This document shows positions 33,068-51,939 of a stretch of 64,000 nt of DNA, one piece after another; the first letter of the stretch is position 1; each line of letters opens with the position of its first letter. This stretch comes from Psychromonas sp. SA13A (GTDB lineage Bacteria; Pseudomonadota; Gammaproteobacteria; Enterobacterales; Psychromonadaceae): the NCBI RefSeq assembly GCF_011378715.1, contig NZ_WTKU01000001.1, positions 434,001 to 498,000 on the forward strand. Direction: 5' to 3'. The position numbers and the translations under genes were made by a program. The notes beneath the pieces are model-generated. The model saw only the letters and a list, made by a program, of their open reading frames with translations. It was not told the origin of the DNA and did not search any database.

Positions 33068-33077
33068 ACAAATTTGT
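33068..33077. promoter_or_regulatory. Shared island palindrome ACAAATTTGT, site 1
   Basis: ACAAATTTGT in the context TTAACAAATTTGTCATAA lies about 130 bases before the DUF1232 gene. Identical decamers lie before csm6-like (35255), between cas10 and cas1 (44219) and before the GTPase operon (51891). Confidence 0.6.
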
Positions 33078-33208
33078 CATAAGAGAGAAAATACTATTAA
33101 AGCCTTACACTGTAATCATCGTCAGGCACCACCATACAACAGTAAAGCGGCATGACATTAAAATAAAAATGCGAAAAAATACAATAATATTTAAAAAGGA
33201 AGTATGCG

Positions 33209-33622
33209 ATGACATTTTCAAATAAAAAAAGACAATCTACACAAAATAAATTTGAGCAAACTGCCCGAGATATCAATAGTGAAGACATTGAAAAAGCTGC
33301 ACGTAATGGTGATAAAAAGCTGCAAGAATTGTACGAAAAATCCCCCGGTGCACTTATAAAACTATGGAATGATCTAAAACTCATGGTCCGCTTACTCAAA
33401 GACTATAGCGCAGGAACTTACACTGATGTCCCTTGGAAAGTAATGGCGTCAATCACTGCAGCCATCATTTATTTTGTATCACCTATTGATGTGATCCCTG
33501 ATTTTATTCCCTTTGCAGGCTACATAGATGATGCTTATGTTATTAAATTGGCACTTGATTTTGCTCGTGATGATGTCTCTCGCTATAGAGCCTGGAGATC
33601 AATTAATCAACAATCTATTTAG
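33209..33622 (+). CDS. DUF1232 (YkvA-family) membrane protein
   Basis: A 137-residue protein with a charged N-terminal half and a C-terminal DUF1232 domain: VMASITAAIIYFVSPIDVIPDFIPFAGYIDDAYVI (about 85-120) carries the family signature PIDxIPDFIP...GYIDDA. That segment is hydrophobic and probably membrane-embedded. AAGGAAG before the ATG is a strong ribosome site. It is followed after 10 bases by a DUF697-like gene, so the two form an operon. DUF1232 and DUF697 proteins are often found near membrane-associated GTPases, and three such GTPases lie 15 kb away in the same island. Biochemical role unknown. Confidence 0.85.
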   Translation: MTFSNKKRQSTQNKFEQTARDINSEDIEKAARNGDKKLQELYEKSPGALIKLWNDLKLMVRLLKDYSAGTYTDVPWKVMASITAAIIYFVSPIDVIPDFIPFAGYIDDAYVIKLALDFARDDVSRYRAWRSINQQSI

Positions 33623-33632
33623 GAGAAATTAA

Positions 33633-33998
33633 ATGAAGAACACAAAAAGTGTACATACTATCATCCATGCTGCAGCGTCATCGGCAGCATGTGTTGGTGC
33701 TGGACTAGCACAGTTACCAGGGGCGGACATGCCGGTGATTGCAGGTATTCAAACGACCATGATTATTACAATAGCAAATAAATTTGGGGCTGAGTTATCT
33801 GAAGCAGCGGCCATGGATATGCTATTGACTGCAACAGCAAGCTATGGCGGTCGAGCATTATCACAGTACTTAGTTGGTTGGATCCCCGGTTGGGGAAACT
33901 CTATTAATGCGAGTACAGCTTTCGCATTAACAGAGGCTGTCGGGTGGGCAGCTGAACATCACTTTTCAAGCAATGATAAGCAATATAGCTCAACATAA
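33633..33998 (+). CDS. DUF697-like small membrane protein
   Basis: A 121-residue protein. The region PVIAGIQTTMIITIANKFGAELSEAAAMDMLLTATASYGGRAL, followed by VGWIPGWGNSINASTAFALTEAVGW, looks like the DUF697 module usually fused to the C-terminus of Era-like GTPases (YcjF-type). Here it stands free. It contains two or three hydrophobic helices rich in Gly and Ala. It is translated just after DUF1232 (GGAG six bases before ATG). A role as a membrane partner for the YfjP-like GTPases is inference from domain habits. Confidence 0.7.
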   Translation: MKNTKSVHTIIHAAASSAACVGAGLAQLPGADMPVIAGIQTTMIITIANKFGAELSEAAAMDMLLTATASYGGRALSQYLVGWIPGWGNSINASTAFALTEAVGWAAEHHFSSNDKQYSST

Positions 33999-34030
33999 AA
34001 TTGGGGTTGAGCAACCGTCAAATGTATAAA

Positions 34031-35233
34031 TTATTCGCTAAAAATAATTTGATCAGGATTCAGTTGAAGACCTAAATGCCCATTTTTGGTACGAGTACGA
34101 AACCCTTCTTCTGACATTTCTTTTTTAACGATACTAATTTCACAAAAAGTAATGCTTTTTCCTACCGCTATTTTCTTCAATTCACCTGAAATATCAAGTA
34201 ACATACGGCTAACAATCGTATTAGATAAGCCTTTCTTTTCTATCGAATCAAAGCACTTTTTATTTACTTTATAACCCGCATTATCTTCTAACTCTTCTTT
34301 AATATCATCAAACCTATCAAAAGGTTTATCACCATTTAAATTTGTGCCAGAAATCTTTGAAAGCTCAAGAAACAAAGGATCATCCATTTTAAAATCAGTA
34401 ATATCCTGACGGCTATAAATAGGCTCATCTTTACACGTCCTAGCGATGATTCGGTAAAAAGCGATCGTTTCAATAGGTAGGTTTAACTCAGTGCCATTTA
34501 GCAATACTCGGTAATCACGAGTAAATTCTAATACGTTTTCATTCGGTGTAAAAGACAATTGGTAAGCTTTAAGAATATCGCGGTAAGTTGCTTCTTGCGT
34601 TAGCATACCACCATCATTTTTAAGCGAATTATTTAATCTTAAAAAAGGAATTTTAGCGAGTTCAACAATGGCATCTTTTGCATCAAGAGAGATCTCTTCG
34701 CCAGTATTCCAGTTTTTAGAAGCAACAAAAGGGCTGGGCGTTTTAGTCGGAAACCAAAAATTAGCAGATTCAAATTCCGGCGCTACTAAAACGTGGCTCA
34801 ATGTATCGCATGGTCGAGCAAATATAGAAAAGATATACCCCATATAAAAAGACATACTCTTACGCCCACCGGCAATGGAAGCATGAATAGCAGTATCATC
34901 ATCTTTCACTAAAGTACGAACTGTTTGCGTTATTTGATCCGCCATTGATTCTTGATCATGTTTATTACGAATATCATTTAATTCATTCCCCTGTAAGTCT
35001 TTAACAATTTGAATATCTGTTGTTAATAGTGTCGGGATCGGTAAAGCATAATGCTCACAAAGCTCAGTTATTTTTTCATGCACCTTTAGTCTTTTAATTT
35101 CATTCGCGCCATGTAATGTTGTGAACACAATTATCCTTGAAGGAAAATTTTTATCCTTCAAGGCAAATAAGGTTTCAGTCACCACTTGAGGTGAGGAGCC
35201 TAGTACGGTCATTAATGTTGTTTTAACTGTCAT
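34031..35233 (-). CDS. CARF-domain protein, Csm6/NE0113-type ring-nuclease family
   Basis: A 400-residue protein. The N-terminal CARF domain of the NE0113 (TIGR02584) type is seen in TTLMTVLGSSPQVVTETLFAL at the N-terminus and IAGGRKSMSFYMGYIF (about 122-138). CARF domains bind cyclic oligoadenylate made by Cas10. This family is annotated as Csm6-type ring nuclease, which would switch signalling off, or as a signal-activated nuclease. I find no HEPN RxxxxH motif in a credible position, so the output activity is unclear. It is separated from the cas6 stop by 105 bases that hold a 20-bp palindrome, so it may have its own promoter. Confidence 0.8.
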   Translation of the reverse strand: MTVKTTLMTVLGSSPQVVTETLFALKDKNFPSRIIVFTTLHGANEIKRLKVHEKITELCEHYALPIPTLLTTDIQIVKDLQGNELNDIRNKHDQESMADQITQTVRTLVKDDDTAIHASIAGGRKSMSFYMGYIFSIFARPCDTLSHVLVAPEFESANFWFPTKTPSPFVASKNWNTGEEISLDAKDAIVELAKIPFLRLNNSLKNDGGMLTQEATYRDILKAYQLSFTPNENVLEFTRDYRVLLNGTELNLPIETIAFYRIIARTCKDEPIYSRQDITDFKMDDPLFLELSKISGTNLNGDKPFDRFDDIKEELEDNAGYKVNKKCFDSIEKKGLSNTIVSRMLLDISGELKKIAVGKSITFCEISIVKKEMSEEGFRTRTKNGHLGLQLNPDQIIFSE

Positions 35234-35249
35234 ATTGTTCTCATTATAT

Positions 35250-35269
35250 TTTTAACAAATTTGTTAAAA
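35250..35269. promoter_or_regulatory. Shared island palindrome, site 2 (20-bp perfect)
   Basis: TTTTAACAAATTTGTTAAAA is a perfect 20-base palindrome centred on ACAAATTTGT. It begins 16 bases before the csm6-like start codon, overlapping where a promoter -10 or leader would be: a position typical of a repressor operator. Confidence 0.65.
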
Positions 35270-35338
35270 GGTCAGATGGTCTCATTTGCAATATAATCCG
35301 CACCACAATGAGACGGTCACGGATGACTGCTCGCCAAA

Positions 35339-36229
35339 TCACTGAATTAACTTATATTTCCCTAAACCAAAAGTCGTTTTTCCACCAATATGTAATTGTT
35401 CACCGATAAGTAACAAAGGTAATGACTCCGTGATTTCTCCACAAAAGCTGAATTGCCCTTTTAACCCACCAAAAGGAAGGTTTTTTTGTTCTTTTAATGA
35501 ATAACGTTGCCAGTCTTCAAAATAACAATGAGCTGTACTTTTAAACCCACCTAATAGAGGTAGTTGTTGATTAACTTGCTCAAGCAAAGGTGAATCATCA
35601 ACGACCCAAAAGCGACTTAATAAAATTAATCGTCGTTGAATTTGACGAAGGAAGAACTCAAGGGGTGGCGCATTACTTTTAACGATTCTACCTTGATGTT
35701 TCATACGTAAAGGCGTTATTAACTGTAATGCTATTTCATGGTTAATAGAGAGCTCGCGCGAACTATCAAGCTGCATCGAAATAGCATCGAATAACGTGTA
35801 GGTATGAATGCCTGTTTGCTGATTGGTTGGTAGCACAGAGCTCATACTTAATACTGAGAATGGTGTTCTATTTTTACCGAACCCCATCCTTTCACCCATT
35901 TTTAACGCAATAAATAAAGAATCAACAAGCTCAATAGCACTACCAAAAAGCGTTATCTCAAAATCAAACACTTCGTGCTGATGCCAATCCGTTTTATGAT
36001 CAGCGTTTGGTGTAATAATATAAGGTTTGGGTTGTTGATTATCGTGCTCACCATAACAAATAAAAAATGCCTGCTCATCAGCCTGTTTAAGTGCATGACC
36101 AAACCAACCATGCAACATAGACCCTTTAAATGCAGGTAACACAGTATCTTTGTGAAATTGAATATAAACACGCAATTTCAGTAAAGAAAACTGTTGGGAG
36201 AGTTGTTGTAAAGGTGAATGCACTAGCAT
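35339..36229 (-). CDS. cas6: Cas6 pre-crRNA endoribonuclease
   Basis: A 296-residue RAMP-fold protein of the Cas6 (PF10040-like) type. It has VLPAFKGSMLHGWFGHAL near the N-terminus (about 31-48), a central KMGERMGFGKNRTPF loop and the C-terminal glycine-rich loop GGKTTFGLGKYKLIQ. It should cut the array transcript within each repeat. The array repeat has a CCCT/AGGG stem with exactly eight bases (ATTAAGAC) after it, the expected Cas6 cut geometry. The start overlaps the TIGR03986 gene's stop by seven bases, so it is the last gene of the effector operon. Confidence 0.87.
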   Translation of the reverse strand: MLVHSPLQQLSQQFSLLKLRVYIQFHKDTVLPAFKGSMLHGWFGHALKQADEQAFFICYGEHDNQQPKPYIITPNADHKTDWHQHEVFDFEITLFGSAIELVDSLFIALKMGERMGFGKNRTPFSVLSMSSVLPTNQQTGIHTYTLFDAISMQLDSSRELSINHEIALQLITPLRMKHQGRIVKSNAPPLEFFLRQIQRRLILLSRFWVVDDSPLLEQVNQQLPLLGGFKSTAHCYFEDWQRYSLKEQKNLPFGGLKGQFSFCGEITESLPLLLIGEQLHIGGKTTFGLGKYKLIQ

Positions 36230-38391
36230 TGTCCCTCAAGATACTTAATTGCTTTTTCAACATCCTTGTCTGATAAGTTAATATTTTTATAAACTGATAA
36301 TAAATATTTAGCTTCTTCATTTGTTAATGTTAACGCCTTAATATCTTTTAGAATATTGCGTAATTCTTTAATCTTATTTTTCTTTTCCGTGCCATTTAAT
36401 TTATCTTGATCACTTTCGATAAACTCCAAAAATAATTTAGATTTTTCATAAAGACTCATATCGGAATTAGAAACATTAGCCTTTTCTTTTGCAAGCTTAT
36501 CTTTAAGTGCTCTTTTTTCAAAGATCTCAAGATAAGTTTCTTGCAACGCTTTTTCATTGTTATGCCAAGTACTTTCTGAATCAAATAACTGTTTTAAACG
36601 ACCCTTTCCAAAAGAAGGTGAACCGATAGGCTCATACTTACTTTCAACATCATTCAATGATTCATCATTATGGTCATTAATGGTAAGTGAATCTTTCGAA
36701 TTTTTAACTACCTGAAAATCTTTTAATTTCATATATTCGAAATGATTTACATCACTAATACTCGTATCCGATAACTCTAATAAGTGATTAATTTGAACAG
36801 AAGTCTTCCAGCCATTTACTTTGTAATATACTTTTTCCATATGAGATTCAAAAGTATCAATATAAGTGTTTACCTTAGCCGTTGAAATGCCTTTTATTTT
36901 AATATTATTATCAGTAATTGAAAATTGAACAGCACCTGCACCAAGCGGTTTACCGTGACCTAACGAATGGCAATTGAATGAAGACCCACCTAACGTCAAC
37001 GCCCATAATAGAGCTGAAAGTTCTTCTTGTTTTAAATTATGAAAGAATATTTTCCCAGAGAACTCACTACCCGCTTCAAGTAGTTCAAGTTTACTTTTAA
37101 CTTTATTGGACTTGATCTCACTACTATCATTTTCTTTAAAATCCCTTTTTATCGGGTAGCGCTTCCAACCTGATAAAACAGAATTATCATTATTATAATC
37201 ATTATAAGATTCAGGATCATTTTGTTGGATATAACCACCTAAGAAGGTTGCTTTAGGAGAAGATAAAATAACAGGAGCAGACGTTAAGTTATGCTCACAA
37301 GAATCTAAAGTTGCGTCTGAAAAAATAACACGACTTTTAAGACTCAATGCTTTTTCACGTAACGTACCGAACATTAATTCAGCCATATCAAAATAAGCAT
37401 CCGCTGAATGGGCTTTATTTTGGTTATCCGCTAAATCCTTTGTACCATTTTTATAACTTACCCTTGGCATTCTTGCAAAACCTAACGAATGAACCTCAGA
37501 GCCTTTTTTCAATGCAAAAACCGGAATACCATGCTCTCGGTGTTCATTGTCTTGTAAATATTGAACCTGATCGGTTTCTTTACCTCTGATTTCGCAAGTC
37601 ATGCTTCGGTGATTATTAAATAAATGCTGAACTTGGGCATCAACGTTAGAAGATTTAACACTGCGTTTATTATAAAAAAAGTAACTGAATTCATAATCAG
37701 ATGCTTTTCCTTGCCCTTTTATACGTTCATTTGTGAACACACAGTGTCCACTCGTTGTACCTTGGTTAAAATCATCAGCCCAGCAATTTTTCTGCACACC
37801 TTTTGGGGCAGAGATATTTGCTTTAAATTCATTAGAAAGTTTGATCTTTTCATATTTTTCAATGGCCGTATCACTATTTCTAATATCTTTTTCCAAGACT
37901 TGATTCAACGTTTTATGCGATAACTTACAAAAATCAGATTCAGTAAACTCCCAGACTTTCTTGATTTTATTATATTTAATCCAGCCAGCCTGTACTTTGT
38001 TCTTTCCTATGACTTCTGTGAGGTAATGGCTTCGTGAAGAGATATCCCGAAACGAAAAGTGGCTATCATCAATTGCATTAAATTTACCGAAGCTAGCAAT
38101 CTCTAACACACTACGTACCATGCCTTTTAAACTAGAGCCTGGAATAATAGGTTTGCCAGATGGGTCTCTCGCCCACTTGACCACTGAAATACCTTGTGCA
38201 TCTTTTTCTTGCTCTGCACCAACACATAAAGGCGTTTTATTATTAAGGGTATATTCGATGGCACCTGACAACCCTTCTTCAAAAGGATGATCATGGCTCA
38301 CTAAATGCGCCCAATCTGGCATATAAACCCACTTTGAAAGTGGGACAAAATGATAAGGTGCGTGTACTTGATCCTGTGTATCGTATGACAT
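36223..38391 (-). CDS. TIGR03986-family CRISPR RAMP protein (Cas7 with large insertion)
   Basis: A 722-residue protein. The N-terminal RAMP part carries KWARDPSGKPIIPGSSLKGMVRSVLE (about 93-118), the substrate-loop signature. A second glycine-rich element, LGHGKPLGAGAVQFS, lies near residue 480. The C-terminal ~170 residues are charged and helical (probable coiled coil). This fits the TIGR03986 family and the 'Cas7-insertion' subunit of type III-D complexes. At the place where slicing Cas7 subunits have an Asp six residues before the RDP motif I see Val, so it may not cut target RNA. It overlaps its neighbours by single bases. Its exact place in the complex is inferred. Confidence 0.82.
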   Translation of the reverse strand: MSYDTQDQVHAPYHFVPLSKWVYMPDWAHLVSHDHPFEEGLSGAIEYTLNNKTPLCVGAEQEKDAQGISVVKWARDPSGKPIIPGSSLKGMVRSVLEIASFGKFNAIDDSHFSFRDISSRSHYLTEVIGKNKVQAGWIKYNKIKKVWEFTESDFCKLSHKTLNQVLEKDIRNSDTAIEKYEKIKLSNEFKANISAPKGVQKNCWADDFNQGTTSGHCVFTNERIKGQGKASDYEFSYFFYNKRSVKSSNVDAQVQHLFNNHRSMTCEIRGKETDQVQYLQDNEHREHGIPVFALKKGSEVHSLGFARMPRVSYKNGTKDLADNQNKAHSADAYFDMAELMFGTLREKALSLKSRVIFSDATLDSCEHNLTSAPVILSSPKATFLGGYIQQNDPESYNDYNNDNSVLSGWKRYPIKRDFKENDSSEIKSNKVKSKLELLEAGSEFSGKIFFHNLKQEELSALLWALTLGGSSFNCHSLGHGKPLGAGAVQFSITDNNIKIKGISTAKVNTYIDTFESHMEKVYYKVNGWKTSVQINHLLELSDTSISDVNHFEYMKLKDFQVVKNSKDSLTINDHNDESLNDVESKYEPIGSPSFGKGRLKQLFDSESTWHNNEKALQETYLEIFEKRALKDKLAKEKANVSNSDMSLYEKSKLFLEFIESDQDKLNGTEKKNKIKELRNILKDIKALTLTNEEAKYLLSVYKNINLSDKDVEKAIKYLEGQC

Positions 38392-38894
38392 TATGCTCGC
38401 TCCTTCTCATTTGAAAATCCCACAAACTGTTGTGTTAATGGTAGCCAACGGCCTTTTTGGTCGCCTTCTTGTGATTGTCTCCACCAACAACGATATACAG
38501 CACAGGTAAATTCATTTTTTAAACTTTGACGTAACATCACTTTCTGTTCCGAAAAAGCAGTGATATCATCTGTGTCAGCATGACTCATCAACGTGACTTG
38601 AAAAAGATCTGCGCCAATCAACTTAACTTTTAAACTATTGTTGTTGTGTGCCCATTCACCTTCAATCAGGTCTTTTCGCGTAGGCTCCTCAGTACTCATC
38701 TCAACTTGGTCACGGTACATTACCCAACCTTCGGCAGGTGTGAACCCCTTAATTTTTTGAAGCATGTGTTCAGTGTTTAACTGCTCAGATAAAATATTAA
38801 TACTCGCATTTGTTAACTTAGGTAACGCATTGCCTAACAACCTTGGATCATCTTGGCTGTGTACTTGTAATCTATTATAATTTTCTAAACTCAT
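38391..38894 (-). CDS. Csx19-like small CRISPR protein
   Basis: A 167-residue protein with no RAMP glycine loop. It has a Trp/Arg-rich C-terminal stretch, FTCAVYRCWWRQSQEGDQKGRWLPLTQQFVGF. Its place between the double-Cas7 and TIGR03986 genes, with overlaps of four and one bases, and its size match the Csx19 slot of type III-D operons. I did not recognise the sequence independently, so the name rests on context. It is most likely an accessory subunit of the interference complex. Confidence 0.55.
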   Translation of the reverse strand: MSLENYNRLQVHSQDDPRLLGNALPKLTNASINILSEQLNTEHMLQKIKGFTPAEGWVMYRDQVEMSTEEPTRKDLIEGEWAHNNNSLKVKLIGADLFQVTLMSHADTDDITAFSEQKVMLRQSLKNEFTCAVYRCWWRQSQEGDQKGRWLPLTQQFVGFSNEKERA

Positions 38895-41849: not shown

Positions 41850-42421
41850 TAAGAATCTCCCTTAACCTGACAAGAAACAGAAACAGCACCTAAACCGCGA
41901 TGACGCTTTGCACCGCATTCAGTCACTAACGTCAATGCACCTTCTAACCACTGTTGAAACTCAGGAAAGTCACCATTTACGGTTAATTCTGCGCGTAATT
42001 TCATTGGCACAACCACTTCAATACTTCTTAACGCACCTTTTTTAGCCACTCCACTTTTTTTATCGATCGCAGTGGACTGCAAAATACGGAAAAGATGCTT
42101 AATAGCCCCTTTATTTTCCAAAAAATAATCCGTTTCTGATTCACTTAATTGAGCACTACTTATTTGAATACAGCCTTGCGAGTATTCGCCTTCATTTTCA
42201 TAACCAAAAAGATCGCTAAGCACATTGCTATCAGCAAACCAAGCATTGTTAATTGCAGTATCAAACGCTTGACGTAATAACCCTTTAATACTTTTACCCG
42301 GTAAATAAGGTAGCTGTAGATGATTTTTTAATGCCAGTGCATCCGCATAAGCACCGCCTTCTTCGCCGCTCCCGATATGCCAATCGCTTTTAATATCAAA
42401 GATTAAAATATACTTATTCAT
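41849..42421 (-). CDS. Csm3-like Cas7 RAMP protein
   Basis: A protein of about 190 residues. I start it at MNKYILIFDIKSDWHIGSG, seven codons inside the longest frame. That ATG overlaps the cas10 stop by eight bases (AATGAATAA), a common coupling arrangement. Key elements are GAYADALALKN (Asp27 in the slicer position of Csm3), LPYLPGKSIKGLLRQAF and the C-terminal glycine loop CGAKRHRGLGAVSV. It should bind the crRNA backbone and cut target RNA. Confidence 0.87.
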   Translation of the reverse strand: MNKYILIFDIKSDWHIGSGEEGGAYADALALKNHLQLPYLPGKSIKGLLRQAFDTAINNAWFADSNVLSDLFGYENEGEYSQGCIQISSAQLSESETDYFLENKGAIKHLFRILQSTAIDKKSGVAKKGALRSIEVVVPMKLRAELTVNGDFPEFQQWLEGALTLVTECGAKRHRGLGAVSVSCQVKGDS

Positions 42422-44108
42422 TATTATCACCTTCATCTGCAATCACCGGCTGGAAATGGTCAACAATTAATAGGTCGTTAATAATACAATTCAACACACC
42501 ATTTTCTTCGCTATACCACCCTTCAATAGCATCAGCCTTTAATAATGCTTGTATAGCATCACTCAAATGACTCATCGCGTTATGGTCAGAAGCCAAAGAC
42601 TTAACACGATTAAACATCGCTTGCGCTTCATCTAAATCACCTTGAGAAAGTAACGTCGCCATTTGTCGCCATTTAGCCGGAGTCATTGCCTTATGTTTAC
42701 TGATGTCATCTAAACGCTTCAGGTTATTGGCATAAACCTCTTCAACAAAATAAGCACTTTTACCCATAGTAATATGTTTATTATTATCTAAAGCAAATAC
42801 TTGAGATTGCTCAAAAGCCTGATCAAACGAAGAGGAAATCGCATTTGATATACGATAAAAAGCGAGTGCAGCTGGCCCAACTTCTGTCTCCGATTTCGTT
42901 ATACTTTTAGTGAGCTTTTTAGCATGTGCACATAAATCTTCAACCAAGCTCAAGCTATTTATAAACGGGTGCCCGGCTTTGTTATACAAAATGCCACCGC
43001 TTGCCGTTAAATAAGGTTTCATGCCACTTGCTTTTAAATGTTGATCGTAAATAGGCGCTAACGCTTTTTCAGAAGCGACTTTAAACTCTTTGCAAAATAT
43101 TTGGCTAAACGTTAAGGCTAAATCGGCACGACATAACAAAGTAACATCATCCCCTCCTAATACAATGGGACGCATCGGTAAGTATTTTTTATTACCTTCA
43201 CTTTTAATGGTATAAGTTGCATTATCGACAATCCACTGCGTCGCTGTTTGTGCAGCTTCAATGGTTGCTTTATTTAAAGCATCAGAAAACTGTCTGAAAG
43301 CATGTTGATAAATATTGTCATCTACCCCTTTTAATGCATCTTTAAGTCCCATTAACAAAATGCCTAACCCGTTGCCATCAATATGAATTAATGCAATATC
43401 ACGTGTTGCTACCAAGTTTGTGGCTTTAGCATCAGCATGTGTTTGAAACTCTTTTTCAATATCAACCGGGTAATGGATTTCGCCTCTTAATTCAGGAGGA
43501 GTAAACCTATCTTGTAATGCCGCATTATCTTTCATCTCCAACGCTTTATAAGCTTGGCGATGATGCTCAGTATCAAGGTCTACACTATCTTCATTCATGG
43601 ATGCTTGAAAGGCGAGTTTAGAAAGAGGGACAGCGACCTTGCCTGAACGTTGATAACGCGCGCTAATAGCACTTGCAAAAGGAAATTTAATAGTAGGGTT
43701 ATTTCGGTCAGTCGCCAGCTGTTGGTGAGCTAAATCTAATGCAACTGGTAACTTATCTGCATGTGTTAACGCATCAGTAAATTCAAGGGAAGGGAAAAGC
43801 TGTTGTAAGGTTAATGTCCATAATGAACGTAACTTAAGGAGCGGTGTTTCGCTTTGACAATAACAATAAAAAGCCCCCCCTTTACAACGTAAAAAATGAA
43901 TACTATTTTCATCATTTTTAGTTTTATCGAGCGCCAACAAATCAGAATCAAGACCAGCATTTAACAACACTTGGTTTAATACACTCTCTTTTTCAGAGTC
44001 GATCAAATTATCTAATCGCTCACTTGCAGCAATCACATCCTTTAATTTACCAGATCGAAAAAGGTATTGTTGAATAGACTTCGCTTCAAACAAATAACAG
44101 TAAATCAT
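42414..44108 (-). CDS. cas10: Cas10 (HD-less, polymerase/cyclase GGDD present)
   Basis: A 564-residue large subunit. It starts directly with a Palm-like domain (YLFEAKSIQQYLFRSGKLKDVIAASERL); no N-terminal HD nuclease domain exists, and the protein is shorter than the usual 700-900 residues. HIDGNGLG (242-249) and LGGDD (317-321) mark the two Palm domains. GGDD is the cyclic-oligoadenylate synthetase site. Target RNA binding should therefore yield second messengers rather than DNA cutting, which fits the two CARF proteins in the island. It is the first gene of the effector operon, divergent from cas1. Confidence 0.88.
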   Translation of the reverse strand: MIYCYLFEAKSIQQYLFRSGKLKDVIAASERLDNLIDSEKESVLNQVLLNAGLDSDLLALDKTKNDENSIHFLRCKGGAFYCYCQSETPLLKLRSLWTLTLQQLFPSLEFTDALTHADKLPVALDLAHQQLATDRNNPTIKFPFASAISARYQRSGKVAVPLSKLAFQASMNEDSVDLDTEHHRQAYKALEMKDNAALQDRFTPPELRGEIHYPVDIEKEFQTHADAKATNLVATRDIALIHIDGNGLGILLMGLKDALKGVDDNIYQHAFRQFSDALNKATIEAAQTATQWIVDNATYTIKSEGNKKYLPMRPIVLGGDDVTLLCRADLALTFSQIFCKEFKVASEKALAPIYDQHLKASGMKPYLTASGGILYNKAGHPFINSLSLVEDLCAHAKKLTKSITKSETEVGPAALAFYRISNAISSSFDQAFEQSQVFALDNNKHITMGKSAYFVEEVYANNLKRLDDISKHKAMTPAKWRQMATLLSQGDLDEAQAMFNRVKSLASDHNAMSHLSDAIQALLKADAIEGWYSEENGVLNCIINDLLIVDHFQPVIADEGDNNE

Positions 44109-44218
44109 TGTTTCCCCTATTGTTGTTAAAAAACATGAGATAAATCATAATAAAGTAAATATTTATAAATATCATTTAATTAACTAATTATAGATACATT
44201 TATTTTGATTTTTTTGAA

Positions 44219-44228
44219 ACAAATTTGT
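44219..44228. promoter_or_regulatory. Shared island palindrome ACAAATTTGT, site 3
   Basis: It lies in the 186-base divergent cas10/cas1 control region, 111 bases from cas10 and 67 from cas1, so a bound protein could control both interference and adaptation. Confidence 0.6.
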
Positions 44229-44294
44229 CAAAGTTCAAGCAACTACAAAATATTTTATGATGGTTCCAGTCAAAAACGTCAACTGGAGATAAAT

Positions 44295-45200
44295 ATGAGT
44301 GCATTAGTCATCATGGAAAAAGAAACAAGGTTATTTTTACGGGAAGGTCAAATATGTTACAAGGCAATCTCAGATACTAGCCGGTTATTGCCTTGGAAAG
44401 GTATTACACACTTAGTGATCGGCAAAGGTGTAGACATATCAACTCAACTTATATTACGCCTGGCAGAAAAAGGTATTTCTTTACTTATTCATGGCACAAA
44501 AAATAATGAGCTAGCTTCACTTGTCCCTTTAAGAACACCGACATCCCCAATAAAATTACAACAATACCAAGTATTTTCAGACCAACATTGCTGCCATCGA
44601 TTATCGATTATGTTATTAAAAGTGAGAGCTAATATGCAATTTAATAATTTACGAAAACTACAACTGCCAGTTAGTGGGGATAGGGTCAAAGAGCGAGAGC
44701 AACTACAGACAACCCCAAATCTAATGCTACAAGAAGCCAAAATAAGCAAACAATATTGGCAACAACTAACCACTATTTTGCAACCATGGGGCTTTACAGG
44801 GCGTATACGCAGACCACCAACAGATCCAATTAATGCTTTACTTTCATTAACTTCAGTAATGGTTGATGGCTTGTATAATCATTCACTACTTATACAAGGT
44901 TTAGATTTAGGCTTAGGATTTCATCACCAAACGGGTTACCGAAGACAGAGTTTGATTTGCGATTTAAAAGAGCTTTCGCGTGCAGATTTAGAATATTGGG
45001 TTATATCGATATTCTTAAATAAGCAACTCACTCAGGCACATTTTGAAAACAACAACGAAGGGTGCCGACTCAATAAAGAAGGGCAAGTACTTTTTTATAA
45101 AGCTTGGTATGCTTTTGCTGAACAACATAAAAAACATGTCGATTATGTCTGTAAATTGGCTAAAAAAGTCATATTAAGGGAGGTTAAGCATGCTAAATAA
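44295..45200 (+). CDS. cas1: Cas1 integrase
   Basis: A Cas1 of about 301 residues. I start it at MSALVIMEKETRLFLREG after a clear GGAG; the longer in-frame ATG at 44205 lies inside the control region before the shared palindrome. Metal ligands look intact: Glu in LMLQEAKISKQYW, His in LGFHHQTGYRR and Asp in LICDLKELSR. There is no reverse transcriptase or Cas6 fusion. It joins new spacers to the array 0.4 kb downstream. The stop overlaps the cas2 start. Confidence 0.92.
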   Translation: MSALVIMEKETRLFLREGQICYKAISDTSRLLPWKGITHLVIGKGVDISTQLILRLAEKGISLLIHGTKNNELASLVPLRTPTSPIKLQQYQVFSDQHCCHRLSIMLLKVRANMQFNNLRKLQLPVSGDRVKEREQLQTTPNLMLQEAKISKQYWQQLTTILQPWGFTGRIRRPPTDPINALLSLTSVMVDGLYNHSLLIQGLDLGLGFHHQTGYRRQSLICDLKELSRADLEYWVISIFLNKQLTQAHFENNNEGCRLNKEGQVLFYKAWYAFAEQHKKHVDYVCKLAKKVILREVKHAK

Positions 45201-45667: not shown

Positions 45668-46713
45668 ATCAACCTAAAGAACGCCCTGAACTAAGGGATT
45701 AAGACCCTATGAATAAAAGTCGACCTATGGGCTCTATTTCAATCAACCTAAAGAACGCCCTGAACTAAGGGATTAAGACCTCCGTCTCTGTTGGCTATAG
45801 TACTATGGTTAGATCAACCTAAAGAACGCCCTGAACTAAGGGATTAAGACTTGGAAAGGTGGTTGCCAGATTGAGATGCTACGATCAACCTAAAGAACGC
45901 CCTGAACTAAGGGATTAAGACCTTGACAGGTGGCGCGTTAAACTCTATTGCATTCATCAACCTAAAGAACGCCCTGAACTAAGGGATTAAGACGCTTCCT
46001 CGGCACTGGATGTGAGGGGGCTGTAGAATCAACCTAAAGAACGCCCTGAACTAAGGGATTAAGACGGCATTGTGTATTGCGCATCTCCCTCGTAATTGTA
46101 TCAACCTAAAGAACGCCCTGAACTAAGGGATTAAGACGAAGCCACTTGGTACGAGGTAACTTCAGCCTTATATCAACCTAAAGAACGCCCTGAACTAAGG
46201 GATTAAGACGAACTCGGCACCTGGGAAAGCCTCTTTAAGTGCACATCAACCTAAAGAACGCCCTGAACTAAGGGATTAAGACTTAGGAGACTTCGCTTGT
46301 AACTTACGGTATTCTTATCAACCTAAAGAACGCCCTGAACTAAGGGATTAAGACAACAATTGAAAAGACGCTTCACCGACAATATCAATCAACCTAAAGA
46401 ACGCCCTGAACTAAGGGATTAAGACCTCATCAAAAAACTCACTATCACGGCTACACCAATCAACCTAAAGAACGCCCTGAACTAAGGGATTAAGACCCAA
46501 GTATTGCGTTCATTAAATCCTTGTTCACCTATCAACCTAAAGAACGCCCTGAACTAAGGGATTAAGACATAGAACTGAAGTGTCTATATGGTGTATATTC
46601 ATAGATCAACCTAAAGAACGCCCTGAACTAAGGGATTAAGACATTACCTGTATTTCGAACGTGCGCACCAAATACATCAACCTAAAGAACGCGCTGCTCT
46701 AAGGCGGTTAAGG
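45668..46713 (+). CRISPR. CRISPR array: 14 perfect 38-bp repeats plus one degenerate, 14 spacers
   Basis: Repeats start at 45668, 45742, 45813, 45884, 45956, 46028, 46100, 46172, 46245, 46317, 46388, 46459, 46531, 46605 and 46676 (degenerate). The 38-base repeat begins ATCAACCTAAAGAACG and ends AGGGATTAAGAC, with a CCCT/AGGG stem. Spacers are 33-36 bases and all differ. The last repeat is intact to about its 17th base and then diverges, fixing the leader on the cas2 side and transcription rightward. Cutting after the stem leaves the 8-base tag ATTAAGAC on each crRNA, as usual for type III. Confidence 0.98.
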
Positions 46714-46750
46714 CTTATGTTTTTCAATGAATGATTCTGATAGTCGAGGG

Positions 46751-46790
46751 CAAAAACTGAACAATGCCCTAAGTAAAGGGCATAAATAAG
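46751..46790 (+). repeat. Probable decayed sixteenth CRISPR repeat
   Basis: The sequence around TGCCCTAAGTAAAGGGCATAAATAAGG keeps the repeat's hairpin and AT-rich tail in altered form. It sits 75 bases after the matching place in the degenerate fifteenth repeat, one array period (71-74) away. It can also fold as a 6-bp hairpin. Confidence 0.45.
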
Positions 46791-46803
46791 GGGGCAAATA
46801 AAA

Positions 46804-46841
46804 TATACAACAAAAATATACAACAAAACTATACAACAATA
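46804..46841. repeat. Three tandem 13-bp repeats, TATACAACAAAA(A/C)
   Basis: Copies begin at 46804, 46817 and 46830 with an exact 13-base period. They are followed by ACAAC-AATAG-GTTGT, a small inverted repeat. They lie between the array end and the stop of the radical SAM gene; read on the minus strand they are T-rich and could form that gene's 3' end. Confidence 0.7.
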
Positions 46842-46866
46842 GGTTGTAGCTATTTCTGCAATATAA

Positions 46867-48624
46867 TCATTTATTGGTGTGCGACGATAATAAGTTATAA
46901 ATGGAGGTTGTAAGTGGCTTTACACTAAGTGATAGCTCTTGAAGTGGTGATTCTGTTCTTAATAAACATAACCCTGTATCTTCATTATGACTAATAGCAT
47001 AGGCGATATCTTTACTCTTATAATATTCAATATCCCAGGTATATATTGCTTGTTGCGTAAAACCTTGGTTTTGCATAGAGGTAAGGTAATGCGGAATATC
47101 TTTTATCACACGTCCTTCATCTAAAAACTCAGTTTGATGTGCACCGTTAGCTAAAATGGTCATTTTTTGTGAGATAGCTAAAGCGGACTCATCGTAGCTG
47201 TTTTTAGCAAGTTTTCGATATTCATTTTCAGGTTGCTGAGGATGGAAAAAGTAAGTTTCAGTGAATTTTCTGACTCTTTCAAGCTGCCCATTCAACAATC
47301 TCTTTCCACGTTCCACTTGTTCTTTGTTAAGTAGATAATAATAGGCCGTTTCGTGTTTTTTACTATTATGCTCTTGGATAAGGATTGGACTATTATCTTG
47401 AAAGTACTCAGCCATTTTATCGATATATTTATCACCTTCCATGATATTGGTTGCCAGGTTATCAGCTGATAATGTTTCAAAGTGTTCTGGGTGAAGAAAG
47501 CAAGGAAACTGTTTCATTTCAGCAGTGAAGGTAACACCTCTGTTTAATAAACAAACATTGCAACCTCGCGCACAAGGACAATGTTGCAACTCAACCTCTA
47601 AATGACTGTTTTTATATTGATACACATCCTTTTTTTGGTTTTGCCATAATAATGTTAATTCATTATGTAAACTGCTTTTAACAGCTCCTAATGTGTAAAA
47701 ATAGGGGTAAAAATCTTTTAAAGCTTCTGTAATTAATAACTCTAAAAATTTTACTGATGTGGCTCCACTTTGTTCTGCATAATGTAAAATAGCATCAAGT
47801 GAGTTTTTGGAGGTATTAATGTCTTTCAAAAGTACAATATTAAGTTTAAAGGGTATGCTTGCCTTTTCAATCATGGTTATTTTCGATTTTATTTTATCTA
47901 ATAAATCGTCGCTTCCAAATTGTTGTTTTTTCTTGCGATGTACTATTTCAAGGTATTCATCATCTAACAAACTATGTAGCGATAAGTTAAAGCGCACTAA
48001 ACTTGGAAAATTTGATAACCTATCAATAATATGTTGATTGATTCTTTCGCCATTAGTGACAATTGTGATCTCAGGAAGGTAATTGATTTTCTCCATATAG
48101 TCTAAGCACGCGCTAATCCCCTTCCAATTTAAAAGAGGCTCCCCCCCTGTAAAGGTAAAATCATCGTATCCGAGATCTGCAAGCTGCTTTATAACGTCGA
48201 AAAACTGTTGATGCTGCCCTTTTTCTCGACGAACCTCCATTTCCATACCTTCTTCATGACAAAAAAAACAATGGTAGTTACATTTTTCAGTGATCGAAAA
48301 TCGAACGGCTTTACGATAAGTTATCTTTTTATGATAATGATCTGATGCATGATAGTAGTTTAATTTTAATAGGCGTTTTATCGTTGAATCACAAGCTGAC
48401 GCTAAAAAGTATAGCTTTATGTTTGTGATATTTTGTTCTGCAAGTGCAAGTTCTAATTTAACTAAAGCAGGCAAAATATCAGCGGTCGATTTCTGTATCT
48501 GTAGTATCGCGGTGTTTGATTCAATCTTTAATTGATAATAAACCCCCATAAACGGTGAGTCGTAGAATGCATCTTTTAACATGGGTAAGGCCTTTGAATT
48601 AAATGAAGTGCAGGAGATTATCAT
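46867..48624 (-). CDS. Radical SAM protein of unknown role beside the CRISPR array
   Basis: A 585-residue protein. An unusual ~105-residue N-terminal domain precedes the radical SAM core: CNYHCFFC (Cys115/119/122) binds the iron-sulfur cluster, and TGGEPLLNW binds SAM. A second Cys group, CPCARGCNVCLL followed by FPCFLH (about 350-375), suggests an auxiliary cluster. The last ~140 residues contain TETYFFHPQQPENEYRKL and a YTWDIEYYKSKD stretch; they resemble no SPASM domain I know and only faintly a CYTH-type fold. MoaA-like similarity is limited to the core. The product is unknown. It points toward the array and is set apart from cas and GTPase genes by gaps of over 200 bases. Confidence 0.75.
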   Translation of the reverse strand: MIISCTSFNSKALPMLKDAFYDSPFMGVYYQLKIESNTAILQIQKSTADILPALVKLELALAEQNITNIKLYFLASACDSTIKRLLKLNYYHASDHYHKKITYRKAVRFSITEKCNYHCFFCHEEGMEMEVRREKGQHQQFFDVIKQLADLGYDDFTFTGGEPLLNWKGISACLDYMEKINYLPEITIVTNGERINQHIIDRLSNFPSLVRFNLSLHSLLDDEYLEIVHRKKKQQFGSDDLLDKIKSKITMIEKASIPFKLNIVLLKDINTSKNSLDAILHYAEQSGATSVKFLELLITEALKDFYPYFYTLGAVKSSLHNELTLLWQNQKKDVYQYKNSHLEVELQHCPCARGCNVCLLNRGVTFTAEMKQFPCFLHPEHFETLSADNLATNIMEGDKYIDKMAEYFQDNSPILIQEHNSKKHETAYYYLLNKEQVERGKRLLNGQLERVRKFTETYFFHPQQPENEYRKLAKNSYDESALAISQKMTILANGAHQTEFLDEGRVIKDIPHYLTSMQNQGFTQQAIYTWDIEYYKSKDIAYAISHNEDTGLCLLRTESPLQELSLSVKPLTTSIYNLLSSHTNK

Positions 48625-48857
48625 TGTGATGACATCGAAAAAGCAATTAAAGCACCTATTAAGGAGTAATTCAGGCTAAAGTTAACATTTATTTTTATAT
48701 CATCATCTTTTAGGGTGTTATTATCCAATGAGCCTATTGTCAAAATGTATTGCTTCAAAAGGATGAAGCATTACCGAAGGCTCTTATCTACTCGTTTTTA
48801 TATAAAATAAGCAAAATATATTGCGCCACTTAGCCTTCAATTAAATAAAGCTCTTAT

Positions 48858-49865
48858 TTAAAGACCAAAAAGATTAGCAATGCCACTTACCAAACTTCGC
48901 CCTGTAGAAGCAATAGATTTGCCAATATTGACAACTGCATTAAAGGTACTCACAACAGTATTGCTAACAATATCAACCGCTGCACTTGAAATGTCACTAA
49001 CTACTGCCATTAATGATTCTGCCATCGATTTTTTAGTTTCGTTAGTGTAGTCCTTTAAATCGTCATTGGTAGCGTAAAGACTGTCATCTGTTGTCATATT
49101 GTCTGCTATTTTATAACGCTTGTTTGCCGGTATGTTTTGCACAATAAAGTGAAGCAATTTGGCAAGGTTGTAAGGGTTTTGCTTTTCTAATTCATCTTGG
49201 TAGCCAGCGCAATAATAAATAGGTTCAATATCTACGCCAGTATTTTCTTTAATACGAACTTGTGTTGATTTTACTTTTGCTTCTAGCTGCTCAATTAATG
49301 CCTTTGTCGGGCGATTTAATTGGTGATCCCATCCTTTTCCGTTCATTGCCATGTCTGCTTGGTTAATAGCAATTAAAATACGACAATCATTATTCCCTAT
49401 ATTAGGAATAATAATTTTCTCCAATAATCGGTAAGTTGTTCCATAGTCTCTACTGCCACCATCAAGCAATACAAGCACTAAATCTATTTTACAGTGTCCT
49501 TCCTCATCGGTTTCATTAAGTAGTTTACTTATGCCCTGAGCGTGGCGAATATCCTCATTGATACCATCCCCAAAACCAGGACTATCCAATATTACTAAGT
49601 TATCTAGTGTATATTGCTGAATGTCCATTGTTTCTGGCATGCTACTCATTCCAACGGTCGCAACATCGGTTTCAAATAAAGCGTTGATAGTAGAGCTTTT
49701 ACCTGACCCTGTTGCACCAGTGATTAACAAATTAACTTCTTTTTTTTCCATTTTTATAATGTTGTTTAAAATGGTTTTTTTATCTAATTCATTAATAGCA
49801 TCTAACGACATTAACTTTTCTTTTAACGTCTTTAATAAATTCTCTTTTTTCGATGACTTTTTCAT
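48858..49865 (-). CDS. YfjP-like membrane-associated GTPase, paralogue 3
   Basis: A 335-residue GTPase. G1 is GATGSGKSSTINALF, G3 DSPGFGDG and G4 NQAD (Gln replacing the usual Lys). The charged N-terminal ~35 residues are helical. The C-terminal ~60 residues (SDISSAAVDIVSNTVVSTFNAVVNIGKSIAS) form amphipathic, Gly/Ala/Val-rich helices likely to touch membrane. The family (YfjP/YeeP/YkfA of E. coli prophages) has no settled function. It is last of three tandem paralogues on the minus strand, 52 bases after the second. Confidence 0.82.
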   Translation of the reverse strand: MKKSSKKENLLKTLKEKLMSLDAINELDKKTILNNIIKMEKKEVNLLITGATGSGKSSTINALFETDVATVGMSSMPETMDIQQYTLDNLVILDSPGFGDGINEDIRHAQGISKLLNETDEEGHCKIDLVLVLLDGGSRDYGTTYRLLEKIIIPNIGNNDCRILIAINQADMAMNGKGWDHQLNRPTKALIEQLEAKVKSTQVRIKENTGVDIEPIYYCAGYQDELEKQNPYNLAKLLHFIVQNIPANKRYKIADNMTTDDSLYATNDDLKDYTNETKKSMAESLMAVVSDISSAAVDIVSNTVVSTFNAVVNIGKSIASTGRSLVSGIANLFGL

Positions 49866-49917
49866 TCACACACTCCAAATAACGATTAATAAAATAATAT
49901 TTTTTGTTGTATTAACA

Positions 49918-50889
49918 TTAAGAAAACAATCCGAAAAAACCACCTATCACGCCACCAATCACACTACCGGCAACCTCGCCTGCAAAGCCAAAACGTCTAC
50001 CTATACGCCCTCCCAACTGCGAACCTTGTTGAACGCCATTAAGTACTTGCCCGAACATATTCTTACTGATTTTTTCTTGATATTTCTTATCTTCTTCACG
50101 CTCTCCCCACATTTCTTGCTCTGGGTTACTTTCAAGTATGACAGTGGCTGCTTTGTTTTTAGGCGTATGTTTAATAATAAAATAAAGCAATTTTGATAGG
50201 TTGTAAGGTTGCAGTCTATCGCTCTCTTCTTGGTAACCGGCACTGTAATAAATAGGCTCAATATCAACACCCGTTGACTGGTTAATACGGGACTGTGTTG
50301 AGATCACTTTTTGATCCAAAAAGTCAATTAATGCTGGAGTTGGTTGGTTCATTTCACTGTCCCAACCACGCCCTTTTTTCGCTTGATCAGCTTGATTAAT
50401 AGCCACTAGAATACGATCTTTTCGTTGCTTACCAAGGTACGGTATAAGCACTTTGGTTAATAACTCATAGCTAGTGCCGTAGTCTTTTTGACTACCATCT
50501 AAAATAAGCAAAACCATGTCGATTAAGGCTTCACCATTTTCATCGGTTTGTTGTAAAAGATCGATTATCTTCTGACTATGGCGTTTGTCATTTTCGATAC
50601 CATCTCCAAGGCCAGGGCTATCCCAAATAGTTAAACCACCAAGAATATATTTATCAATATCCATGGTTTCAGGATCAACGCCCATCCCTACCCGAGTGAC
50701 TTGTTTTCCAAACAATGCATTAATAGTGGAGCTTTTACCTGAACCTGTTACACCTGTGATCAACATATTCACTTTTTGGTTACGCATTTTTTGGATGTTT
50801 TTTAACATTTGAATTTTATCTGCTTCATGCAATGATGCATTTTCACGGATCTGTTTTTCAATCTCATTTAATTTATTAACATCATTCAT
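49918..50889 (-). CDS. YfjP-like membrane-associated GTPase, paralogue 2
   Basis: A 323-residue GTPase closely similar to paralogue 3: GVTGSGKSSTINALFG, DSPGLGDG, NQAD. The C-terminus, GSQLGGRIGRRFGFAGEVAGSVIGGVIGGFFGLFS, is a glycine-zipper type hydrophobic tail likely to insert in or bind a membrane. The N-terminal helix (MNDVNKLNEIEKQIRENASLHEADKIQML) is shared with paralogue 3. It is the middle gene of the trio. Differing tails suggest the paralogues form a mixed complex rather than being redundant. Confidence 0.82.
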   Translation of the reverse strand: MNDVNKLNEIEKQIRENASLHEADKIQMLKNIQKMRNQKVNMLITGVTGSGKSSTINALFGKQVTRVGMGVDPETMDIDKYILGGLTIWDSPGLGDGIENDKRHSQKIIDLLQQTDENGEALIDMVLLILDGSQKDYGTSYELLTKVLIPYLGKQRKDRILVAINQADQAKKGRGWDSEMNQPTPALIDFLDQKVISTQSRINQSTGVDIEPIYYSAGYQEESDRLQPYNLSKLLYFIIKHTPKNKAATVILESNPEQEMWGEREEDKKYQEKISKNMFGQVLNGVQQGSQLGGRIGRRFGFAGEVAGSVIGGVIGGFFGLFS

Positions 50890-50926
50890 ATTTAAACTCT
50901 CTTAATTTATTATTTTTAATCGCTAT

Positions 50927-51637
50927 TTATGCAATATGAAGCATTAAGTTCCGACGTACTTCTGGCATGGCATTGATGATGGCATCCATAAAAACATCAA
51001 GGTTAAAACCTTTATCAGCCGAGTAAAAAATAGGACGCTTTACCTCGATACCACAGGCCGATTTAATACGAGATTGGATAGAACAAGCCTGCTCTTCTAA
51101 AAATTCATGGAGAGATGAAGTGGGCTCCCCTTTAGTGTCATCCCAGCCTCGGCCTTTTTTAGCAACATCTGCTTTATTAATCGCAATCACTACTCTTTCC
51201 GGTTCGATATTTGCTAAAATAACGTCATTAATAAGCTGATAAGTGCTTCCCATATCACGATTGCTACCTTCTATTACGATCACAACCATGTCGATGAAGC
51301 CATATGTATTACCTTGCATTGGATATGTTTTATGCAATAATTCTATTAATTTTTTACTATGCTTTTTATCTGACTCAATACCATCTCCGAGACCAGGAGT
51401 GTCCCAAAACCGTAATTCACCATGAAGTTTGTAGTGATCTAAAGTCATGGTCATAGGGTCACAACCGTATCCAACTTTAGCGATTTTTTTGTGGAATAAA
51501 GCGTTTAATGAGGTTGATTTACCTGCTCCCGTTACACCTGTAAACATTACATCTAATGGACGAAACCCTGCTTTATTAAGGTTTAATCTCATCTCTTCGA
51601 TACGATAATCAATGCTATTAAAATGTTGTTTATTCAT
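50927..51637 (-). CDS. YfjP-like GTPase, paralogue 1 (no membrane tail)
   Basis: A 236-residue GTPase: GVTGAGKSTSLNALF, DTPGLGDG and canonical NKAD. It consists of little more than the G domain: it ends at PEVRRNLMLHIA, lacking the 60-90-residue hydrophobic tail of the other two. This could be the soluble regulatory member of the trio. It is the first GTPase of the operon. TTAAGGAATTAAATT precedes the ATG, and two tiny ORFs lie in its 5' region. Confidence 0.82.
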   Translation of the reverse strand: MNKQHFNSIDYRIEEMRLNLNKAGFRPLDVMFTGVTGAGKSTSLNALFHKKIAKVGYGCDPMTMTLDHYKLHGELRFWDTPGLGDGIESDKKHSKKLIELLHKTYPMQGNTYGFIDMVVIVIEGSNRDMGSTYQLINDVILANIEPERVVIAINKADVAKKGRGWDDTKGEPTSSLHEFLEEQACSIQSRIKSACGIEVKRPIFYSADKGFNLDVFMDAIINAMPEVRRNLMLHIA

Positions 51638-51735
51638 AATTTAATTCCTTAATAAAACACAATAGTTACCAGTAAAAAGATTGCCTCACCTGTATACTTC
51701 TAAGTTTTTGATAGGTAAAACGAGTTAAATGACGA

Positions 51736-51777
51736 TTAATCGTCGAGTAACCATTTAACAATTAATAATGCAAACAT
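51736..51777 (-). CDS. Tiny ORF 1, 13 residues (MFALLIVKWLLDD)
   Basis: The ATG follows AAGGAT at 7-8 bases; an in-frame ATG two codons earlier is too close to that site. It encodes a hydrophobic 13-residue peptide ending in two Asp. The stop lies in the perfect palindrome GACGATTAATCGTC (51731-51744). A diverged second copy is at 51940-51966. It sits about 100 bases before the GTPase operon on the same strand: a leader peptide or type I toxin-like peptide are both possible. Expression is unproven. Confidence 0.4.
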   Translation of the reverse strand: MFALLIVKWLLDD

Positions 51778-51890
51778 GTTCATATCCTTGTTGATTCGAT
51801 GCTTTATAAAATTGGCGGTTAAAGTAATATTTAACGCTCTCTGCTTTGTTGTTATTTAATATACTGATTTTTTGTATTTATGATGCCGAC

Positions 51891-51900
51891 ACAAATTTGT
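51891..51900. promoter_or_regulatory. Shared island palindrome ACAAATTTGT, site 4
   Basis: In the context CGACACAAATTTGTCTAAC, it lies 114 bases before tiny ORF 1 and 254 before the first GTPase gene, between the two tiny-ORF copies. Confidence 0.55.
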
Positions 51901-51939
51901 CTAACACCAGTTAACTGCTGACGATTCATCATCGAGTAG

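Follow-up and report, generated by a model that had tools for sequence, protein, structure and literature searches.

A palindrome shared by the promoters of a Psychromonas type III CRISPR island: the probable operator of a CARF and winged-helix activator

The palindrome in the island and in the genome

The DNA described here, 64,000 nucleotides of Psychromonas sp. SA13A (contig NZ_WTKU01000001.1, positions 434,001 to 498,000), is called the window, and coordinates count from its first letter. It contains an 18.8-kb type III CRISPR island with a cas10 operon, cas1, GTPase genes, a DUF1232 gene and a gene of the NE0113 family (Table 1). The promoter regions of these genes share a palindromic decamer, ACAAATTTGT. 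The palindrome is probably the operator of an activator encoded in the island itself (34031-35233), an NE0113-family protein that combines a CARF domain with an OmpR-type winged helix and would sense cyclic oligoadenylate. The sites, their conservation, the family-wide operator, the promoter geometry and the domain make-up were established by computation.

The decamer occurs at 33068, 35255, 44219 and 51891 and nowhere else in the window, as a sequence-only reading of this DNA had reported. That reading expected well under one copy in 64 kb; dinucleotide shuffles of the window give a mean of 0.33, and none of 100 shuffles contains four or more. All four copies are indeed non-coding and lie in promoter regions of the island: the open reading frame (ORF) over 44219 is an over-extended cas1 with a TTG start, and the ATG at 44295 is preceded by GGAGAT. 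The copy before the gene then called csm6-like does form part of a perfect 20-bp palindrome (35250-35269). Sequences with one mismatch to the decamer are not in excess in the window (6 seen, 8.94 expected), and the enrichment is therefore confined to the exact form.

The whole genome (4.57 Mb) holds 13 exact copies. Of the nine in the 4.55 Mb outside the island, seven lie inside long ORFs, some of them presumably lacZ, thrC, rlmD, nirB, nusB and proV, one lies between convergent genes, and one is found 46 bp upstream of a gene that we take to encode a membrane protein. This background density predicts 0.037 copies per 18.8 kb, which gives a Poisson probability of 8e-8 for four or more, or about 2e-5 after multiplication by the number of 18.8-kb segments in the genome. 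Among 24 genomes of the genus Psychromonas, this one included, the decamer is present 4 to 16 times per genome. Thus, the motif alone is unremarkable, and its clustering in the promoters of one island is what is special. A pattern count allowing up to two mismatches in this genome does not separate the motif (452 sites) from a control pattern (522).

Table 1. Operators, predicted -10 boxes and genes of the island. Offsets are counted from the operator centre.
Feature	Positions	Strand	Remarks
Operator before DUF1232-EcsC, TAACAAATTTGTCA	33066..33079	.	13/14 consensus positions
Predicted -10 TACACT of DUF1232 promoter	33106..33111	+	starts at +34
DUF1232 protein, predicted regulon member	33209..33622	+	PF06803, 52.3 bits
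EcsC-like small protein (earlier DUF697)	33633..33998	+	PF12787, 22.4 bits, E 1e-4, below cut-off
Proposed regulator, NE0113-family CARF (~1-205) and predicted OmpR/PhoB-type winged helix (~205-400)	34031..35233	-	
Predicted -10 TATAAT of regulator gene	35243..35248	-	+12; operator just upstream of -10
Operator at regulator's own promoter, perfect 20-bp palindrome TTTTAACAAATTTGTTAAAA	35250..35269	.	
cas10 (GGDD), first gene of presumed interference operon 35339-44108	42414..44108	-	
Predicted -10 TATAAT of cas10 operon	44187..44192	-	+32
Operator AAACAAATTTGTCA between divergent cas10 and cas1	44217..44230	.	12/14 consensus positions
Predicted -10 TATGAT of cas1-cas2	44256..44261	+	+33
cas1, likely start ATG 44295	44295..45200	+	
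cas2-position gene, 100 amino acids	45190..45492	+	named by place after cas1; kept in sister island
GTPase 1	48858..49865	-	
GTPase 2	49918..50889	-	likeness to other two by comparison in sister locus
GTPase 3, first GTPase of presumed operon	50927..51637	-	
Tiny ORF MNMFALLIVKWLLDD	51736..51783	-	
Predicted -10 TATATT of tiny ORF-GTPase promoter	51858..51863	-	+33
Operator ACACAAATTTGTCT before tiny ORF and GTPases	51889..51902	.	11/14 consensus positions

A sister island is present in an uncultured Psychromonas (genome G391, contig NZ_CANLFB010000045.1, loci L044 and L197), where the genes from Card1 to DUF1232 are kept. All four control regions retain sites there: operators are found in the cas1/cas10 interval and before the regulator gene, two precede DUF1232 and three precede the GTPases, the number and exact spot differing in the last two regions. 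The two islands are identical at 122/125 positions of the regulator promoter and at 146/182 positions of the cas10-cas1 region, with the core intact. The sequence-only reading had proposed one regulator's operator uniting interference, adaptation and the GTPase/DUF697 genes (the latter here DUF1232-EcsC), a proposal that these results support. It would have been contradicted by a motif common in unrelated intergenic regions or missing before the same genes of related islands; the motif is sparse and mostly coding outside the island, and the sister retains it in front of these genes.

The probable operator across the regulator family

Relatives of the 34031-35233 protein were collected from 30 of 369 genomes drawn from the class (this one included) and from the best 80 of 549 encoding contig stretches, 110 loci in all. 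Translation starts were set by alignment, and the 300 bp upstream of each were scanned; locus L040, with 77 bp upstream, was left out. Among the 109 loci with at least 250 bp of upstream sequence, exact CAAGCTTG is found in 65 and CAANNTTG in 77. Removal of relatives with at least 80 percent identity leaves 86 of the 110, 85 of them with 250 bp upstream. In this non-redundant set CAAGCTTG precedes the regulator gene in 47/85 cases and CAARYTTG in 55/85, whereas the runner-up among the 256 8-bp palindromes precedes 7/85, and dinucleotide shuffles give a mean of 0.45 and a maximum of 3 in 100 rounds. The sequence-only reading had seen no obvious regulator gene in the island and took the protein to be probably chromosomal. 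The presence of the family operator upstream of that very gene in 47/85 relatives suggests that the regulator is encoded in the island and not elsewhere.

The family operator has the consensus YGRCAARYTTGYCR with the core CAAGCTTG, and a weight matrix of all 75 sites, redundant ones included, reads YGRCAAR|YTTGYCR, the bar marking its centre. The decamer of the window is its A/T-centred form. Among the site-bearing contigs are those of Gamma- and Betaproteobacteria and of metagenome bins titled Blastocatellia, Bryobacteraceae, Desulfobacterales and Acetothermia. The centre of the operator tracks the subgroup of the regulator. A site is present for 51 of the 75 aligned relatives (29 others, from the class-genome search, were left out of this comparison), and its centre is other than GC in 8/9 relatives with a long C-terminus and in 0/42 with a short one.

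In the best 80 contig loci, strong sites stand upstream of 131 ORFs. Comparison with the proteins of the window names 37 of these as NE0113, 6 as cas7, 5 each as cas2 and cas6, 2 each as cas10 and GTPase, and 1 each as cas1 and DUF1232; the other 72 are unnamed by it, and some are surely not genes. When 15 of the 60 longer unnamed ORFs were compared with profiles by hmmscan (two sets of 10 with five in common), the matches were Cas10, CARF-HEPN Csx1, Cas8b-like (two loci), DarT (two), LRAT-fold, helicase and PDC-M45/dual-OB proteins, and a protein with PKD-type surface domains; 5 of the 15 had no match in the library or libraries used. In Zoogloea (L063, L117) the operator precedes genes for relatives of the window GTPases.

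In Alishewanella and Arsukibacterium (L084 3828-16550, L079 3835-11630), at least five operator-like sites surround genes for DarT, LRAT-fold, helicase-like and small proteins, the LRAT-fold protein having a Pfam match in L079. The genes in these arrays look like further members of the regulon.

Promoter geometry

TATAAT-like hexamers were counted at each distance from the operator centre. At 56 sites before regulator genes, the window's own among them, a hexamer begins at +34 in 21 cases, at +33 and +35 in 5 each, and at any other offset in 0 to 4, with about 0.5 expected per offset. A second set consists of 69 other site-gene pairs in which the site matches at least 12/14 consensus positions and the start is 30-200 bp downstream; it includes the sister sites of L044, and the gene in one of its rows (L080) carries the annotation NE0113. 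Here the hexamer is at +34 in 21 pairs, at +33 and +35 in 7 each, and elsewhere in 0 to 3 (about 0.7 expected per offset), and 34/69 pairs have it between +32 and +35. No conserved -35 element lies between operator and -10: at least 4/6 matches to TTGACA occur in 13/79 rows and in 5/79 of a control stretch. As these rows were selected by their -10, only the absence of a -35 is read from them.

The four window promoters other than that of the regulator were not used in deriving the spacing rule, and all of them follow it, at the offsets listed in Table 1. The chance of such a fit is about 3e-4 for 4/4, or 1.2e-3 for 4/5 if the non-fitting promoter of the regulator is counted. The nine other genomic copies of the decamer offer 18 orientations, one of which has a -10 at +32 to +35. 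In the sister island, cas10, cas1, the three tiny-ORF sites and one of the two DUF1232 sites have their hexamer at +32 to +34; the other DUF1232 site is off the rule (+31, +36).

A preferred spacing of about 34 bp without a conserved -35 places the operator centre about 45 bp before the transcription start predicted from the -10 box, as in promoters that are activated in the class II manner. The shared operator of the sequence-only reading stands, and the geometry points to an activator, not to a plain repressor operator. The regulator's own promoter differs. Its TATAAT is at +12 in the window and at +11 in the sister, with the operator just upstream of the -10, and the site looks repressive there. 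A sigma-70 scan of the island found 66 promoter-like sites against 73.9 in shuffles; because such hits are no commoner than in shuffles, single predictions were not used.

The candidate regulator

The protein passes both curated cut-offs of its family (TIGR02584, residues 7-204, 173.2 bits with a cut-off of 80.65; PF09623, 112.3 bits with a cut-off of 23), and the PADLOC model CARF5--CARF matches residues 4-398. Its predicted model resembles CARF proteins in the PDB, and there is a conserved GGRK motif.

The C-terminal part was modelled through a relative. An alignment of 71 C-terminal regions was the basis for a model of the Rhodoferax antarcticus protein, which is confident (pLDDT 90). In a Foldseek search with this domain, 24 of the top 25 matches were OmpR-type DNA-binding proteins, BaeR, KdpE, VicR and PhoB among them; we take CadC and ChxR to belong to the 24 as well. 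A profile search of PDB sequences gave RstA at 1.5e-3 and then CarR, BasR, KdpE, PrrA and PhoB, amid some unrelated matches. The C-terminal domain of the window subgroup is homologous to that of the canonical subgroup (hhalign 99.3 percent, E 4.6e-20). Compared with Pfam over its whole length, the window protein showed no OmpR-type domain at E 1e-3, and phmmer against solved structures found nothing at E 1. A model named Csa3 does not appear in the match tables of the protein, the presence of such a model in the libraries being unchecked. As modelled, the window protein is a CARF domain followed by a predicted winged helix of the OmpR/PhoB type.

The csm6-like label of the sequence-only reading could not be kept. 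No Pfam or NCBIfam HEPN match is present in the protein at E 1e-3, and a Csm6 RNase identity was rejected because HEPN is absent. PADLOC matches named Csx1 end by residue 219, and beyond the CARF part the matching models are CARF-only or CARF-membrane. Likewise, the predicted winged-helix fold of the relative's C-terminus argues against a CARF-HEPN RNase of the Csm6/Csx1 kind.

Proposed mechanism

By combining these observations, it is possible to suggest how the island may be controlled. A dimer of the regulator, the state expected of CARF proteins in general, would bind the two-fold site YGRCAARYTTGYCR, which is ACAAATTTGT in the window. It would sit about 45 bp upstream of the predicted start, adjoining the -35 position, at the promoters of the cas10 operon, of cas1-cas2, of DUF1232-EcsC and of the tiny ORF with the GTPases, and would act there as a class II activator that recruits RNA polymerase. 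The CARF domain most likely binds the cyclic oligoadenylate that Cas10 produces, and this ligand would set the activity of the regulator. Recognition of a target would then, by positive feedback, act on how strongly CRISPR genes and effectors are expressed. As these promoters are probably switched on by a sensor encoded in the same island, the infection signal of the CRISPR system could switch on its own defence genes. In this genome the regulator probably limits its own synthesis, because its operator adjoins its own -10 box. DNA binding by the protein, its ligand and the sign of the ligand's effect are what we infer from these patterns.

Evidence against a simple link and alternative explanations

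Several results weigh against this interpretation. CAARYTTG is absent within 300 bp in 30/85 non-redundant relatives, and G381, a third genome of the genus with a relative, has no site within 300 bp of the gene. A -10-like hexamer at +32 to +35 is missing from 35/69 of the other site-gene pairs. Neither phylogeny nor base composition is corrected for in the link between operator centre and subgroup, which includes the window and sister proteins separately, nearly identical as they are; L028 (376 amino acids, with CAAACTTG), which is not among the aligned relatives, departs from it. Foldseek E-values are weak, from 9e-3 up and none at 1e-3 or below; the C-terminal model of the window protein itself is low-confidence in places, the good model being that of the relative. 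One study of the analogue Csa3 found that it bound its promoter both in the presence and in the absence of cA4 (PMC8844856).

Some genomes without a detectable regulator gene weigh on the same side. Ten such genomes were defined by a PF22335 match of at most 1.1e-15 together with no regulator match in the class-genome search. Around their cas10 genes there are 10 CAAGCTTG in 174 kb, with 2.2 expected. The comparison set, 9 hand-picked stretches from 8/30 regulator-bearing genomes, has 25 in 170 kb, with 2.1 expected; one of the stretches (L182) does not itself include the gene. The whole excess of the regulator-free genomes comes from three of the ten (G009, G273 and G191), assemblies of 150 to 410 contigs in which a profile search finds no regulator gene. 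The other seven are at background, with 2 in 121.7 kb against 1.5 expected; one of them (G075) has an interrupted and another (G117) a fragmentary family match. In the three site-bearing assemblies either the gene was lost or left unbinned, or the site is read by another protein. Counts of 14-mer matches in 60 genomes also fail to separate regulator-bearing from regulator-free genomes: there are 82 in the 30 with the gene (control 37), 27 in the 10 with cas10 only (control 14) and 32 in the 20 others (control 20). Together, the 30 siteless relatives and the three regulator-free site-bearers are what speaks most against a strict pairing of site and regulator.

The operators at L175 11361, L178 6937 and L177 6459, in three assemblies where the NE0113-family gene is undetected, precede genes that we take by resemblance to be cmr1-like.

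The same regulator and operator could work in the opposite sense, with a repressor from which cyclic oligoadenylate releases the promoters during infection. The position of the operator next to the -10 of the regulator's own gene in both islands would suit such a repressor, and Csa3b, a studied CARF-winged-helix protein, is described as one (PMC7465815). The 34-bp spacing preferred in two site sets and the lack of a conserved -35 are needed by an activator and not by a repressor, and release from repression is considered unlikely. A different, unlinked host regulator might instead read the palindrome, which would then lie near NE0113-family genes because both belong to type III loci. The sites in three of the ten cas10-bearing genomes without a detectable family gene are what such a regulator would explain. 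It would not explain why the site precedes the regulator gene itself in so many non-redundant relatives on contigs titled with several classes and phyla, why the other seven genomes are at background, or why the operator centre follows the regulator subgroup, and the idea is quite improbable.

Chance, base composition or another DNA element, for example a recombination or nucleoid-protein site, is harder still to credit. The lack of a one-mismatch excess in the window and the 4 to 16 copies per genome across the genus are as such an origin would have it, but the corrected clustering probability, the conservation in the sister island and the promoter geometry are not. The CARF and winged-helix activator is thus preferred as the reader of the palindrome.

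Other features of the island

The type III effector operon (35339-44108) encodes Cas10, III-D-kind Cas5 and Cas7 proteins and a Cas6, as identified with PADLOC, NCBIfam and Pfam; its small gene at 38391-38894 has no NCBIfam match. Its neighbourhood also contains cas1, the gene in the cas2 position, the GTPases, a radical SAM protein and, at 52812-53972, a Card1-like nuclease. GGDD is retained in Cas10, so that cyclase activity is likely from its sequence. The gene after DUF1232 had been labelled DUF697; no DUF697 match is found in it at E 1e-3, and a weak match to EcsC takes its place. An Rfam scan of 32000-55000 found no family reaching its gathering score.

The GTPases are preceded by tandem units with tiny ORFs, 13-15 codons long and with WLLDD at the end (51736-51783 on the minus strand; L197 4217, 4387 and 4558). 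The sister island has three near-identical ones, each behind an AGGAGG ribosome site and its own operator; the second tandem unit of the window (51919-52001) has just a short ORF with a different ending. A large radical SAM protein with viperin-type likeness (46867-48624, minus strand; PADLOC pVip, 1e-20) is encoded between the CRISPR array and the GTPases. The sister island retains it (78 percent), and no operator-like site is close upstream. The repeat at this end of the array (46680-46790) is degenerate, and a terminator-like hairpin lies beyond it on the minus strand (46764-46783).

Implications and comparison with known systems

To our knowledge, how bacterial type III CRISPR genes are switched on is largely open. 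A broader proposal is advanced tentatively, as somewhat more doubtful than not: bacterial type III CRISPR may have an infection-triggered regulon in which one second messenger both activates the effectors and, through a CARF-OmpR activator, turns on transcription of the interference complex, of spacer-acquisition genes and of otherwise silent effectors. Some of these would be effectors not recognised so far, for example the three GTPases, DUF1232-EcsC, DarT, LRAT-fold proteins and tiny hydrophobic peptides. If this is true, the operator-plus-(-10) signature becomes a sequence tool for finding new effectors. It could help to tell genuine ancillary effectors in defence islands from mere neighbours, and it already covers the GTPase genes of Psychromonas and Zoogloea. 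The analysis names a candidate regulator, proposes its binding site and describes how the promoters are laid out, all of which experiments can test.

NE0113 proteins were predicted as direct transcription regulators by Makarova 2014 (PMC4012209). By both cut-offs the window protein is a member of this family, which is filed as PF09623, TIGR02584, 'ring nuclease Csm6' in NCBIfam and CARF5 in PADLOC. The literature searched, with few subscription journals and with texts in part, yielded no operator, regulon or activator promoter geometry for the family. In the portions available, a survey of type III loci from 2024 postponed the treatment of regulators (PMC11229360), and a 2025 ring-nuclease survey and a CRISPR classification mention transcriptional regulators only in general (PMC12409355, PMC12669027).

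The proposed regulator is tied to a defence island like BrxR, and unlike BrxR it has a CARF and not a WYL domain. WYL regulators of the BrxR kind have operators and act as repressors. BrxR is one of the WYL-domain regulators tied to defence systems (PMC9122601, PMC9122589). No WYL gene is among the 17 window proteins scanned, no search aimed at WYL having been made.

MM_0565 of Methanosarcina mazei shares the CARF-winged-helix make-up and binds at the promoter of its own gene as well as at CRISPR leader regions. Unlike the case of the window, its setting is an archaeal type I-B system, and the paper reports no distinct binding motif as yet and no direct effect on cas transcription (PMC7465815). 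Csa3, a CARF-winged-helix factor of archaeal type I and III systems, binds cA4 and acts on cas promoters and adaptation genes (PMC8844856, PMC9704534, PMC7480081). Like Csa3, the window protein joins a CARF sensor to a predicted winged helix; unlike Csa3, it belongs to a bacterial, type III-D-like island, its winged helix would be of the OmpR/PhoB type, and its operator would be a short, defined palindrome in promoters laid out for bacterial class II activation.

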